From Frigoribacterium sp. PhB160 (lineage in GTDB: Bacteria; Actinomycetota; Actinomycetes; Actinomycetales; Microbacteriaceae), in NCBI RefSeq assembly GCF_003751785.1, contig NZ_RKIE01000003.1:1-64000 (forward strand): a DNA stretch of 64,000 bases, read 5' to 3'. Under the pieces are notes generated by a model. That model had not been told where the DNA came from, searched no databases, and worked only from the letters and a program-made list of their open reading frames with translations. The position numbers and the translations under genes were made by a program. Of the stretch, positions 30,869 through 35,125 are shown piece by piece (the stretch's first letter is position 1; each line of letters opens with the position of its first letter).

Positions 30869-31158
30869 GTGCGTCCTGCGTCCTGCTGACCGAGCGTGTG
30901 TCGGGGTCCCCGTCCTGGGGCACTGCCGAGTCTCGCCGCGCGGTCCCTCCCGCGCGCCCCCCCTTGCGCAATGGGGACAATGCGCATGCATGGACCCACG
31001 TCCGCAGAAGTGTGGACACGACCTCGAGGAATGCCTGGTCAGAGGCCTGGCGCCGACCCCGCGGGGAGGCGCGGTGCACGCCGACCGAGCCCGCACCCGT
31101 CCCGCGAACTGGGGGCATGTCGATGGGCGTCCGCCCGACCCGGGCCGTGGCGGACCGT

Positions 31159-31184
31159 GATCTTGCACACGGCTGTGCAAGATC
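31159..31184. promoter_or_regulatory. TetR operator: perfect 11-base inverted repeat
   Basis: Arms GATCTTGCACA (31159-31169) and TGTGCAAGATC (31174-31184) around CGGC. It covers the -35 element and most of the spacer of the promoter described next, so binding would shut off the operon starting at 31198. Confidence 0.88.
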
Positions 31185-31191
31185 GTAGAGT
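31163..31191 (+). promoter_or_regulatory. Promoter of the TetR/pseudo-ATPase/YhgE operon
   Basis: TTGCAC (31163-31168), 17-base spacer, TAGAGT (31186-31191), then six bases to the GTG at 31198. Leaderless. Confidence 0.7.
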
Positions 31192-31197
31192 GAGCGG

Positions 31198-31932
31198 GTG
31201 CCGACGACCCACCCGACCCCTCCCCCGACGCCCGCCCGTGCGCCGCGCCGCGACGCCGCGGCGAACCGCGAGGCGCTCATGGCCGCGGCGGTGCGGCTGC
31301 TGAACCGCGACCCCGCCGTGCCGCTCGAGGCGATCGCGGCCGAGGCGGGCCTCTCGCGCCGCAGCGTCTACGGGCACTTCGCGACCCGCGACGACCTCGT
31401 GCGCGAGGTGACCCTGCGCGGGGCCGCCCGCGTCGGCGCGGCCGCGCTGCCGGAGCCGACCGACGACCCGGTCGTGCAGCTCGCCACCCTCGGCGCCCGG
31501 CTCTGGGCCGAGGTCGCCCACGTGCGCGTGATGGCCCAGCTGACCGTCCGCGGGCCGATGATGCACGACGTCGCGACGGCGCTCGCCCCGCTGCGGGCCT
31601 TCCTCCGCGAGACCGTCCGACGAGGCGTCGCCGAGGGCCGGATGCGCGACGACGTCGCGCTCGACACCCTCGCCCGCCTCGTCGAGGGCGCCGCCCTGTC
31701 GGTTCTCGACGAGGCCGCGACCCACGGCCTCGACCGGGCCGAGGGACACCGTCTGGTGATGCTGACCGTCCTGGCCGTCGTCGGGCTCGGCTGGCGCGAG
31801 GCCGCCGAGCTGATCGCCTCGACGCCCGAGCTCGCCCGCCCGCTCGACCCGGCCGCGCCCGCGACCCTCGCCGCGCCCGCTTCCCCTCCCCCGTCCGCCA
31901 CCCCGACCACGCCCTCGGAGCAGAACGCATGA
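31198..31932 (+). CDS. TetR/AcrR-family regulator of the YhgE operon
   Basis: A 244-residue regulator. The helix-turn-helix IAAEAGLSRRSVYGHFATRDDLV spans residues about 44-66 and is preceded by a proline-rich tail; the C-terminal domain is helical, followed by an unusual proline/threonine/alanine-rich tail of about 35 residues (PAAPATLAAPASPPPSATP). It starts with GTG, six bases after TAGAGT. Its last codons overlap the next gene (ATGA), so it is the first gene of a three-gene coupled operon that it probably autoregulates through the inverted repeat at 31159-31184. Confidence 0.9.
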   Translation: MPTTHPTPPPTPARAPRRDAAANREALMAAAVRLLNRDPAVPLEAIAAEAGLSRRSVYGHFATRDDLVREVTLRGAARVGAAALPEPTDDPVVQLATLGARLWAEVAHVRVMAQLTVRGPMMHDVATALAPLRAFLRETVRRGVAEGRMRDDVALDTLARLVEGAALSVLDEAATHGLDRAEGHRLVMLTVLAVVGLGWREAAELIASTPELARPLDPAAPATLAAPASPPPSATPTTPSEQNA

Positions 31933-32561
31933 GACTCGAGCTCGACCAGGTCGCCGTGGGCGACGGACCGGGGGCCCCGCTGCCCGAGATCAGCGCCGTC
32001 GCCGACCGGGGCGCCCCCGGCTTCGTCGGCGTCGAGACGGTCGACGCGCCCACGCTGGCCTCGCTCGTCGCCGGCGGCCGGATGCTGCCCGACCGGGGCC
32101 GGGTGACGCTCGACGGGAGGGAGGCGACGGACGCGATCCGCGCCTCCTTCGCCCTCGTCGACACGCCCTCGGTGGCCGAGCCGTTCGCGACCCTCACCGT
32201 GGCGCAGGTCGCGCGGGAGGAGCTGGCCCTGGCCGGACTGCGCTCCGACCGCGCGAGCGCCGCGCTGCTGCTCGACGAGATCGGGCTGGCCGACCACCGG
32301 GGCACGCGCCTGAGCGCGCTGCCGTCCGAGCTCCGCGTCCGGCTGCTGACCGAGCTGGCCGTGCTGCGGCCCGGCGTCGCGGGCCTCGTCCTCACGACGC
32401 CCGAGCGCCACGGCGGCGACGTGCACGGCTGGCTCGCGGTCGTGCGCGACCTCGCCGAGCGCGGCTACACCGTGCTGACCGTGACGAGCCTCGCGGCGAT
32501 GACCGTGATCGCCCCCTCCGACACCGACCCCGACACCGCCCCCAGGAGCGACCCCTCGTGA
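31929..32561 (+). CDS. ABC-ATPase-like protein lacking all catalytic motifs (pseudo-ATPase)
   Basis: A 210-residue protein that follows the layout of an ABC ATP-binding domain: LELDQVAV start, RGRVTLDGREATDAI, an ATLTVAQVARE Q-loop region, LLDEIGLADHRGTRLSALP and VVRDLAERGYTVLTVTSL. Yet the Walker A position (residues 34-42) reads GVETVDAPT with no lysine, the signature reads LSALPSE (128-134), Walker B reads GLVLTTPE (152-159) without the aspartate-glutamate pair, and the H-loop histidine is serine 187. It should not hydrolyse ATP. It is coupled by 4-base overlaps to the TetR gene before and the YhgE gene after, so it is maintained as a gene, perhaps as a structural partner of the permease. 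Confidence 0.7.
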   Translation: MRLELDQVAVGDGPGAPLPEISAVADRGAPGFVGVETVDAPTLASLVAGGRMLPDRGRVTLDGREATDAIRASFALVDTPSVAEPFATLTVAQVAREELALAGLRSDRASAALLLDEIGLADHRGTRLSALPSELRVRLLTELAVLRPGVAGLVLTTPERHGGDVHGWLAVVRDLAERGYTVLTVTSLAAMTVIAPSDTDPDTAPRSDPS

Positions 32562-34624
32562 AGATCATCGCCCTCGTCCGCTCCGAGCTGCAGCGCCTCA
32601 CGTCGACCGGCCTCGCCCGGCTCGCCCTCGTCGCGCTGATGACCGTGCCCCTGCTCTACGGCGGCCTCTACCTCTGGGCCAACCAGGACCCGTACGCGAA
32701 GCTCGACCAGGTCCCCGCGGCGATCGTCGACGCCGACCTCGGCACCGTCGTCGACGGGAAGGCCACGAACTACGGCGAGCAGGTCACCGACGAAGTCGTC
32801 GACGGCGGCGACTTCGACTGGCACGCGGTGTCGGCGGCCCAGGCGGCGGCAGGCCTCCGCGACGGCACCTACGACTTCACCTTCTCGATCCCGAGCGACT
32901 TCAGCGCCGACCTCGTCAGCGCCTCGAGCGACGACCCCACGCGCGCGCAGATCACGCTCGCGACCAACGACGCCAACAGCTACCTGTCGACGACCATCGC
33001 CGGGCAGGCCGGCAAGACGATCCGCGCGTCGGTCACCGAGAAGGTCGGCAAGGAGGCCGCGGAGCAGCTGCTCGTCGGCCTCGCCGACATCCGCACCTCG
33101 CTCGGCAGCGCGGTCGACGGCGCCGACCAGCTCGTCAGCGGCACCGTCTCGGCGACCGACGGCGCCGACCAGCTCGTGGCGGGCGCCTCCGACGCCTCTG
33201 CCGGGGCCGACCGCCTCTCGACCGGGGCCTCCGACGCCGCGACGGGCGCCGACTCCCTCGCGGCCGGCACCGCCCGGCTCGCCACGGGAGCGACCGCCCT
33301 CTCCTCCGGCCTCGACCAGCTCGAGACCGCGACGAGCGGCCTGCCCGCGAGCACCCGGCAGCTGGCGACCGGCGCGCAGCAGGTCGCCGAGGGCGACCGC
33401 GCCCTGGCCGACGCCCTCGGCCCGGTCGCCGCGCAGAGCGCCGCCGACGCCGCGCAGATCCCCACCGAGGCCGAGGTGAAGGAGGCGCTGCTCACGAGCC
33501 CCCTGCAGCTGACCGACGCGCAGGCCACGGCCCTCGCCGCCCAGATCAGCGGCCTCAACGGCCGGCTCTCGGCGGCGAACGACCAGGTGCAGGCGCTGAA
33601 CGGCCAGGTCGGGACGCTCGCCGACGGGGCCGAGCAGGTCTCGGCCGGAGCAGCGCAGCTGAGCGCCGCGGCACCCGCCCTCGCCTCCGGCGTCTCCGAC
33701 GCCGCCGACGGCGCGGGGCAGCTCGAGACGGGCGCGGCGAGCGCCGCCTCGGGCGCCTCGACGCTGGCCACGGGCCTCGACGACCTCGACACGGGCGCGG
33801 CCTCGCTCGCGAGCGGGCTGGCCGCGCTGGACGAGGGGTCGACGACCCTCCGCGACGGCGTCGTCCAGCTGCGGGACGGGACCGTGCGCCTCCGCGACGG
33901 CCTCCAGAGCGGCCTCGGCGAGATCCCCGCGAGCACGGAGCAGAGCCGGGGGGACCAGGCCTCGGCGATCAGCGACCCCGTCGCCGTCTCCGACCAGGCG
34001 CTCACCAGCGCGGGCACCTACGGCGCCGGCCTCGCGCCGTTCTTCATCAGCCTCGCGGCGTGGATCGGCATCTACGCCCTGTTCCTCATCGTCAAGCCCC
34101 TCTCGAAGCGGGCCGTCACCGCCGTCAAGGCCCCCGTGCGGATCGTCACGGCGGGCTGGCTCGCCCCCGCGCTGCTCGGCGTCGTGCAGATGGTCGCGCT
34201 CTTCGCGGTGGTGCGCGGCGCGCTGGGCTTCGACGTCGCGCACCCCTGGGGCATGGTCGGGCTCATGGCGCTCGCGTCGGTCACCTTCGCGGCGATCATC
34301 ATGATGCTCAACGTGCTGCTGGGCAGCGTCGGGCAGTTCCTCGGGCTGGTGCTCATGGTGGTCCAGCTCGTGACGGCGGGCGGCACCTTCCCGTGGCAGA
34401 CCCTGCCCGGGCCGCTGGCGGCGCTCCACTTCGTGCTGCCGATGAGCTACGCGACCGACGGTCTGCGCCAGCTCATGTACGGCGGCAGCACCGCGGCGGC
34501 CTGGACCGACGCCGGGGTGCTGGCGCTGTGGATGCTCGGGGCCCTGCTCGTCTCGCTGCTGTCCACGGCCCGCATGACGCGACGGCGCACCCTCCGCGAC
34601 CTGCGGCCCTCGCTGATCGGCTGA
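32558..34624 (+). CDS. YhgE/Pip-family membrane protein with ABC-2-type permease domain
   Basis: A 688-residue protein. One helix near residues 15-36 is followed by a large extracytoplasmic region (about 37-485) and then about five or six C-terminal helices (from FFISLAAWIGIYALFLIV to VLALWMLGALLVSLLS). The outer region contains many degenerate repeats of the type GAxxLxxG (residues about 185-300 and 355-465), predicted to form a helical stalk, as in YhgE, Pip and EsaA/YueB. Family members act in phage attachment or transport, mostly unresolved. GTG start overlaps the pseudo-ATPase stop. Export of a TetR ligand is a reasonable inference. Confidence 0.88.
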   Translation: MKIIALVRSELQRLTSTGLARLALVALMTVPLLYGGLYLWANQDPYAKLDQVPAAIVDADLGTVVDGKATNYGEQVTDEVVDGGDFDWHAVSAAQAAAGLRDGTYDFTFSIPSDFSADLVSASSDDPTRAQITLATNDANSYLSTTIAGQAGKTIRASVTEKVGKEAAEQLLVGLADIRTSLGSAVDGADQLVSGTVSATDGADQLVAGASDASAGADRLSTGASDAATGADSLAAGTARLATGATALSSGLDQLETATSGLPASTRQLATGAQQVAEGDRALADALGPVAAQSAADAAQIPTEAEVKEALLTSPLQLTDAQATALAAQISGLNGRLSAANDQVQALNGQVGTLADGAEQVSAGAAQLSAAAPALASGVSDAADGAGQLETGAASAASGASTLATGLDDLDTGAASLASGLAALDEGSTTLRDGVVQLRDGTVRLRDGLQSGLGEIPASTEQSRGDQASAISDPVAVSDQALTSAGTYGAGLAPFFISLAAWIGIYALFLIVKPLSKRAVTAVKAPVRIVTAGWLAPALLGVVQMVALFAVVRGALGFDVAHPWGMVGLMALASVTFAAIIMMLNVLLGSVGQFLGLVLMVVQLVTAGGTFPWQTLPGPLAALHFVLPMSYATDGLRQLMYGGSTAAAWTDAGVLALWMLGALLVSLLSTARMTRRRTLRDLRPSLIG

Positions 34625-34640
34625 GGCCGGGCGGCGTCGC

Positions 34641-34657
34641 GGCGACGGACCGTCGCC
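34641..34657. terminator. Hairpin between convergent yhgE and DUF3151 genes
   Basis: Seven-base stem GGCGACG (34641-34647) / CGTCGCC (34651-34657) with a 3-base loop, in the 84-base gap between the two stops; further GC-rich inverted segments follow. Confidence 0.5.
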
Positions 34658-34708
34658 CGGGGCCGCCCCGCGCCTCCCCGGGGCTCGGGAGCGGCCGGGC
34701 CGGCCGGG

Positions 34709-35125
34709 TCAGGCGCGCTCGGCCTCGATGGCGGGCGCGGCGGCCGGGTCGGCGTCGGCGAGGAAGGTCGTCAGGCGCTCGACCTCGTCGGCCTCGCCGA
34801 TCGCGGCGGCCCCGCGGCGGAGCGCGAAGAGCGCCCGCAGCACGCCCCGGTTGGCCTCGTGCGACCACGGCACCGGGCCCTGGCCGCGCCAGCCGGCCTT
34901 GCGCAGCGCGTCGAGGCCGCGGTGGTACCCGACCCGGGCGTAGGCGTACGCCTCGAGCTCGGCCCCCCGGGCCGCGGCCTCGTCGCTGAGCAGGGCCCAG
35001 GCGAGGGACGACGTCGGGTGCGCCGTGACGACCTCGACGAGGTCGAGCGTCTCGAGGTCGGCGAGCACGTCGGGCTCGGCGGGCAGCAGGGTCTCGGGCA
35101 CGCCGAGGAGGTTCGTGGAGGTCAT
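34709..35125 (-). CDS. DUF3151 domain protein
   Basis: A 138-residue actinobacterial protein of unknown function. It matches the DUF3151 pattern with LLPAEPDVLADL at the N terminus, AHPTSSLAWALLSDEA near residue 37, EAYAYARVGYHRGLDALRKAGWRG near 57 and VPWSHEANRGVLRALFAL near 82. No signal or membrane segment. The ATG at 35125 is chosen over a GTG nine bases earlier because it yields the usual start; TAGCGT lies seven bases upstream, suggesting a leaderless transcript. It is encoded next to a TrmH-type methyltransferase on the same strand. Confidence 0.88.
   Translation of the reverse strand: MTSTNLLGVPETLLPAEPDVLADLETLDLVEVVTAHPTSSLAWALLSDEAAARGAELEAYAYARVGYHRGLDALRKAGWRGQGPVPWSHEANRGVLRALFALRRGAAAIGEADEVERLTTFLADADPAAAPAIEAERA

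Follow-up and report, generated by a model that had tools for sequence, protein, structure and literature searches.

In ATP-binding cassette (ABC) transporters, the Q-loop region of the nucleotide-binding domain (NBD) faces the membrane subunit and the D-loop faces the dimer partner. Several ABC exporters (TAP, TmrAB, ABCG5/G8, SUR) have one degenerate nucleotide site, so that one of the two sites is dead. YhgE/Pip proteins are phage receptors related to the type VII secretion component EsaA. In the titles and abstract openings of the open PMC literature (subscription journals lay outside the scope of this search) we found no description of a YhgE-NBD pair; elsewhere, transport by YhgE/Pip is raised only as speculation (PMC4999554), YhgE/Pip figures in a table (PMC9782250) and yhgE belongs to a pilus cluster (PMC5152845). 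Here we analyse a three-gene locus of Frigoribacterium sp. PhB160 (Actinomycetota, Microbacteriaceae), located in a stretch of 64,000 nucleotides (positions 1 to 64,000 of contig NZ_RKIE01000003.1, hereafter the window), that encodes a TetR-family regulator, a protein with the predicted fold of an ABC NBD (hereafter pseudo-NBD) and a YhgE/Pip membrane protein. The original prediction, made from the sequence of this locus alone, described an ABC-like pair whose ATPase subunit has lost every catalytic motif. The finding is wider than that: the window locus belongs to a YhgE-linked family found across Actinomycetota.

The three predicted open reading frames were all recovered (Table 1). The pseudo-NBD has no match in Pfam or NCBIfam, and a sequence search of the PDB detected a weak resemblance to ABC ATPases (best E 0.25). 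The AlphaFold2 model, built from 26 sequences (the window's protein and 25 of 29 relatives, near-duplicates being left out), has a mean predicted local distance difference test score (pLDDT) of 90.3 and a predicted template modelling score (pTM) of 0.85, and its comparison with the PDB by Foldseek yielded 807 chains at E <= 0.001. The best match is LptB (E 1.4e-10, TM-score 0.70 by query length); the best 50 of the 807 matches are ABC ATPases or complexes containing them, wherever the title is informative, and the titles among the matches listed include LptB, EcfA, HrtBA, MacB and FtsEX. In the structural sense the protein is thus predicted to be an ABC NBD, sharing the fold of ABC transporter NBDs (PF00005; LptB, HrtA), and the lack of such a fold, one of the outcomes that would have spoken against the original prediction, did not occur. 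The Pfam model ABC_tran (PF00005) was detected in 27 of 66 family members scanned (best 2.8e-16) and not in the window's protein; these 66 are what remains of 70 representatives after omission of L198 and of three rows longer than 330 residues. Common descent with ABC NBDs is evident from the distant members that match PF00005. The C-terminal tail of the pseudo-NBD (window positions 32517-32558) is of low complexity, rich in Asp, Pro, Thr and Ala, and its length is very variable among relatives (e.g., L013, L036 and L088).

Table 1. Coordinates, in the window, of the operon and of the features discussed in the text.
Feature	Position	Strand	Description
Probable TetR operator	31159..31184	.	11-base inverted repeat with 4-base spacer; once in the genome, repeat also in the clade
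TetR-family regulator	31198..31932	+	244 aa, GTG start; PF00440 35.1 bits (cut-off 24)
Pseudo-NBD	31929..32561	+	210 aa; predicted ABC NBD fold without catalytic motifs (AlphaFold2, Foldseek)
Former Walker A loop	32028..32054	+	Residues 34-42 (GVETVDAPT), without Lys; aligned against 12 true ABC ATPases
Former Q-loop stretch	32160..32183	+	D78-P85; D78 and P85 invariant in 78/78 relatives
ABC signature position	32319..32333	+	Residues 131-135, LPSEL instead of LSGGQ; alignment
Former Walker B and D-loop	32382..32411	+	Residues 152-161; P158 and R160 invariant in 78/78 relatives
Former H-loop position	32487..32489	+	Ser187; alignment
YhgE/Pip membrane protein	32558..34624	+	688 aa; TIGR03062, TIGR03061, TIGR03057 repeats, PF12698
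Putative coupling-helix stretch of YhgE	34085..34138	+	Residues 510-527, with R518; short helix in model

In the catalytic sense, judged by the Walker A Lys, the LSGGQ signature and the catalytic Glu, the window's protein does not appear to be an ABC ATPase. Motif columns were read from an alignment of 180 distinct family sequences (distinct proteins, not independent lineages) with 12 true ABC ATPases from the genome of the window, all of which have the Walker A Lys, the Q-loop Gln, the signature SGG, the Walker B Asp and Glu, the D-loop Asp and the H-loop His. The losses first read from the sequence (Walker A Lys, LSGGQ signature, Walker B Asp and Glu, H-loop His) are all borne out by this alignment, in which the Q-loop Gln is missing as well; the lost LSGGQ had been misplaced at LSALPSE, and its aligned equivalent is LPSEL. 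Counted from the following helix, the Walker A Lys column corresponds to P41; counted from the first Gly, it corresponds to A40. Across the family, the catalytic Glu, the SGG, the Q-loop Gln and the H-loop His are each kept in 0/180 sequences, the assignment of the Q-loop and H-loop columns being alignment-dependent and less certain in distant members. The Walker A Lys is retained in 11/180, every one in a distant clade of 35 sequences and none among the 145 near relatives, and the catalytic Glu and the signature are gone even from the sampled members that still have this Lys. An alignment-free pattern check agrees on the loss of Walker A and signature; a loose Walker B pattern matched 31/180 sequences, the listed matches falling elsewhere in the protein. 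The row of L198 is misaligned in the motif counts and in the tree described below (wrong far-upstream start), and the true L198 sequence also lacks the motifs; L001, L039 and L040, being repeats, were not included, and L149 and L153, with NBD-like open reading frames beside yhgE that miss the 1e-4 cut-off, are outside the 180. Because none of the 180 keeps the Glu, SGG, Gln or His, and only 11 distant members keep the Lys, the loss is inherited and wide in Actinomycetota. Different genera and families have it in common, and the 180 include no yhgE-adjacent relative with the full set of motifs, which would have made the window's protein a mere decaying copy. Judging from these alignments, a real family of YhgE-linked ABC NBD relatives exists in Actinomycetota, differing from ABC NBDs in that every sampled member lacks the residues for ordinary ATP hydrolysis.

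The loss is uneven within the family. In the distant clade, the Walker A Lys column is occupied by Lys in 11 sequences, Arg in 23 and Gln in one; the P-loop glycines are mostly kept (in 33, 31 and 32 of the 35), as is the Walker B Asp (33/35), and the catalytic Glu is replaced by Asp in 28/35. In the clade of the window (145 sequences), the Lys column has Pro in 115, Arg in 16, His in 10 and others in the remainder, and the Walker B Asp is retained in 15. In a quick maximum-likelihood tree, which comprises 70 representatives and five true ABC ATPases and has support only from the Shimodaira-Hasegawa-like approximate likelihood ratio test (SH-aLRT), the family separates from the true ABC ATPases (SH-aLRT 100) and a wider clade of 39 rows, including the window, separates from all other members (98). 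Most Lys-bearing members branch close to the base, followed by Arg, then by His, Gln, Leu and Pro; L157, which bears Lys, stands beside an Arg-bearing row away from the base. At least six changes between Lys, Arg and other residues are required on this tree, which has a small outgroup and 27 weak inner branches out of 72, and such counts do not separate gain from loss. The order looks like a stepwise, graded loss, from Lys to Arg and then to His or Pro.

The pairing with yhgE is nearly constant. Of the 196 loci in which an NBD-like gene was detected (E < 1e-4), 195 carry yhgE in the same orientation and no more than 700 bases downstream, the single exception being cut by a contig end; the 195 pairs include some genomes twice (named and unnamed copies). 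This linkage is not circular for most loci, because they were found via the NBD gene; for the distant loci, found via yhgE, it is partly built in. Among 99 relatives searched, 63 match the pseudo-NBD at E <= 0.001, the weakest (E above about 1e-7) possibly being ordinary ABC ATPases; all 15 other Frigoribacterium genomes match strongly, and so do other genera of the family Microbacteriaceae. A profile of the pseudo-NBD matches 54/297 genomes of the order at E <= 1e-8, and the YhgE model TIGR03062 matches 208/297 at E <= 1e-10 (167 over cut-off) and is over cut-off in 34/246 genomes of a sample of the phylum. In the 16 Frigoribacterium loci, the median ratio of nonsynonymous to synonymous substitution rates (dN/dS, NG86 method, 119/120 pairs for each gene) comes to 0.31 in the pseudo-NBD gene, between tetR (0.26) and partial yhgE (0.43), from which the pseudo-NBD gene is under purifying selection. 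The loss of all catalytic motifs from the window's protein could also be that of a decaying copy of an ABC ATPase, but this is barely conceivable with strong matches in 15/15 other genomes of the genus and in other genera, a dN/dS of about 0.3 and new invariant residues; the view that the gene is not simply decaying, first based on its intact frame, is upheld by the linkage and by this ratio.

Two genomes of the window's family (G212 and G099) have a separate, very divergent and degenerate NBD-like lineage before a second yhgE copy (L143, 2944-3600, and L267, 2654-3331), with GEPVDRR in place of Walker A. Several genomes from another part of the phylum (L268, L271, L272 and others) carry two yhgE copies within about 3 kb, and no NBD-like gene was detected in the three such two-copy loci examined.

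Residue conservation indicates which parts of the protein have been kept. R51, G57, D78, P85, E97, P158, R160 and W168 are identical in 78/78 relatives, and H161 in 69/78. Over 39 representatives (mean entropy 2.0 bits), the Walker A loop (2.11 bits), the signature (1.93) and the H-loop strand (2.07) are close to the average of the pseudo-NBD, the same segments having 0.73, 0.32 and 1.20 bits in the 12 true ABC ATPases; conservation is higher at the end of helix 1 and in the D-loop stretch (1.27 bits each), in Walker B (1.44) and in the former Q-loop stretch (1.54). The Q-loop and D-loop stretches are thus conserved with the nucleotide site near average, and therefore the pattern fits a kept interface and a relaxed nucleotide site. 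A sensor that binds ATP or another ligand without hydrolysis and switches YhgE between states, with nucleotide bound by the GSGKT or GSGRT members, could account for the 11 sequences with a Walker A Lys and for the glycines and Walker B Asp of the distant clade; we think it unlikely, as the Walker A loop of the window's clade is as variable as the protein mean, unlike a kept nucleotide pocket. The invariant polar residues D78, E97 and R160, together with the mostly invariant H161, might instead build the new active site of a different enzyme or ATPase. These residues would equally suit a protein interface, and they differ in the distant clade, which has the same gene order, making a new enzyme very improbable.

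The partner of the pseudo-NBD is clearly a YhgE/Pip protein, scoring 205 bits with TIGR03062 (cut-off 102) and 176 bits with TIGR03061 (cut-off 96), and it thus belongs to the same family as the YhgE/Pip proteins of Bacillota (L. lactis Pip, E. faecalis PIP-EF) and EsaA. On one Leuconostoc, one Parageobacillus and one Deinococcus plasmid, no NBD gene is listed adjoining yhgE in a gene table that is incomplete. PF12698 and PF01061 are both over cut-off in the window's protein, supporting by sequence its assignment to ABC-2 membrane proteins. Its AlphaFold2 model (pLDDT 82, pTM 0.58), built from 44 sequences (the window's protein and 43 of 55 diverse YhgEs), presents an N-terminal helix (residues 2-14), then a first membrane helix and an alpha/beta part. 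Residues 174-454 form a long coiled coil, and in the C-terminal membrane domain a short helix (517-522) lies between membrane helices one and two of that domain. R518, in this short helix, is kept in 44/46 YhgE representatives paired with an NBD versus 7/17 orphans. One orphan YhgE, L120, is nested among paired YhgEs and has Glu at the position of R518; its genome has no pseudo-NBD match in the profile search of the 297 genomes of the order. L120 and L121 (genomes G209 and G336) have a YhgE close to that of the window and have lost the pseudo-NBD gene, and their lineage has Glu-Glu-Ala in the coupling-helix stretch where paired YhgEs have x-Arg-Ala. The R518 pattern fits docking at the short helix, with few independent changes behind it.

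From the sequences, gene order, conservation, predicted fold, motif loss and purifying selection, we infer docking on YhgE, dimerisation and an absence of ATPase activity. The best reading, which we hold with slightly more confidence than doubt, is a non-hydrolysing, NBD-shaped subunit docked on YhgE. A descendant of an ABC ATPase would have lost the residues for hydrolysis and kept the fold and the partner, and in the clade of the window nucleotide binding was probably lost too. Docking would most likely involve the cytoplasmic side of YhgE, with contacts at its N-terminal helix and around the coupling helix (residues 510-527), in the manner of an NBD on an ABC-2 exporter, and the pseudo-NBD would serve as a scaffold or clamp for a YhgE dimer.

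Several observations weigh against this docked, non-hydrolysing subunit. In 59 yhgE loci from the TIGR03062 searches of the order and of the phylum sample, which were hand-picked, mainly from genomes in which no near relative had turned up, and do not form a random sample, an NBD-like gene lies directly upstream of yhgE in 40 (three of the window's own clade) and none was detected in 19, so YhgE does not always need an NBD. In the near clade, the Walker B segment shows no relaxation (1.44 bits), because P158 is invariant, and some members with the Lys or the Walker B Asp may still bind nucleotide. At E <= 0.001, Foldseek detected only two matches of the YhgE model, both coiled-coil proteins; those to ABC exporters are weak and rank below them (ABCH-9C, E 2.2e-3; ABCG25, E 1.7e-2; then CcmB and TarGH), so that YhgE resembles ABC-2 exporter membrane subunits by sequence, with a weak structural match. 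The difference at R518 follows the tree; when the presence of an NBD was contrasted with that of the coupling-helix Arg, there were four independent pairs, one or two agreeing and none or one against, too few for significance. No fusion of pseudo-NBD and YhgE was observed in the 195 pairs. Finally, a mean-field direct coupling analysis of the two proteins (133 distinct pairs, effective number 61) was discarded: its within-protein signal was noise-like, and among the highest-ranking inter-protein pairs cytoplasmic segments were not over-represented (33 in the top 160 versus 34 expected, and 3 in the top 20 versus 4 expected).

The genes of the operon are joined, as initially described, by 4-base overlaps, ATGA (31929-31932) and GTGA (32558-32561), and the N-terminal DNA-binding domain of TetR regulators (PF00440) places the first protein in that family. 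The candidate operator upstream, GATCTTGCACA-CGGC-TGTGCAAGATC, had been described as a perfect 26-base site; its 11-base arms are indeed perfect, but the 4-base spacer prevents a perfect 26-base palindrome. The core CTTGCACA-N4-TGTGCAAG has a single exact copy in the 3.34 Mb genome and three other sites with three mismatches each; per strand, a reversed control gave eight matches versus four for the real core. A wider regulon for this TetR protein was rejected, a second exact site being absent from the genome. Exact TTGCACA-N4-TGTGCAA occurs in 68/160 loci of the window's clade and in 0/35 distant loci, with a spacer of always 4 bases, though 3 to 6 were permitted in the search, and a longer form of the repeat with up to three mismatches is present in 116/160 loci of the clade versus 2/160 for a reversed control. 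A promoter and terminator scan of 30950-34800 found nothing, and hence we claim no promoter. The simplest reading of the repeat and the adjoining tetR gene is a local autoregulated operon, in which the TetR protein would repress transcription via the operator just upstream.

As in exporters with a degenerate site, the pseudo-NBD appears to have lost catalytic residues and kept fold and interface; the difference is that this operon has just one NBD gene, whose product retains none of the motifs. The pseudo-NBD could be the dead half of a heterodimer in which a canonical ABC ATPase encoded elsewhere energises YhgE, an unlinked partner being possible because the genome has 104 matches to PF00005. 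However, the operon encodes no other ATPase, and none was seen as a fixed neighbour in the loci examined, by a scan aimed only at NBD-like, yhgE and tetR genes; we regard such a heterodimer as quite improbable.

Plasmid-borne partners of YhgE are variously annotated as 'ABC transporter ATP-binding protein' (Arthrobacter, where Arg replaces the Walker A Lys), 'ATP-binding cassette domain-containing protein' (Rhodococcus) and 'hypothetical protein' (Tsukamurella); the annotation of such partners misleads. We are evenly divided on a broader proposal, namely that in Actinomycetota YhgE/Pip often forms an ABC-exporter-shaped complex with an ATP-independent pseudo-NBD, and that members of the family trace, in graded form, how an ATPase became a structural or regulatory subunit, with Lys at Walker A giving way to Arg and then to His or Pro. 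A conserved partner that is shaped like an ABC motor and has none of its chemistry suggests that these YhgEs are not ATP-driven in the usual way. The pseudo-NBD offers a concrete protein through which to approach the function of YhgE, and its family a natural series for the change from ATPase to pseudo-enzyme. What is suggested, in many of the actinobacteria sampled, is an ABC-transporter-like machine that would work without the usual fuel.

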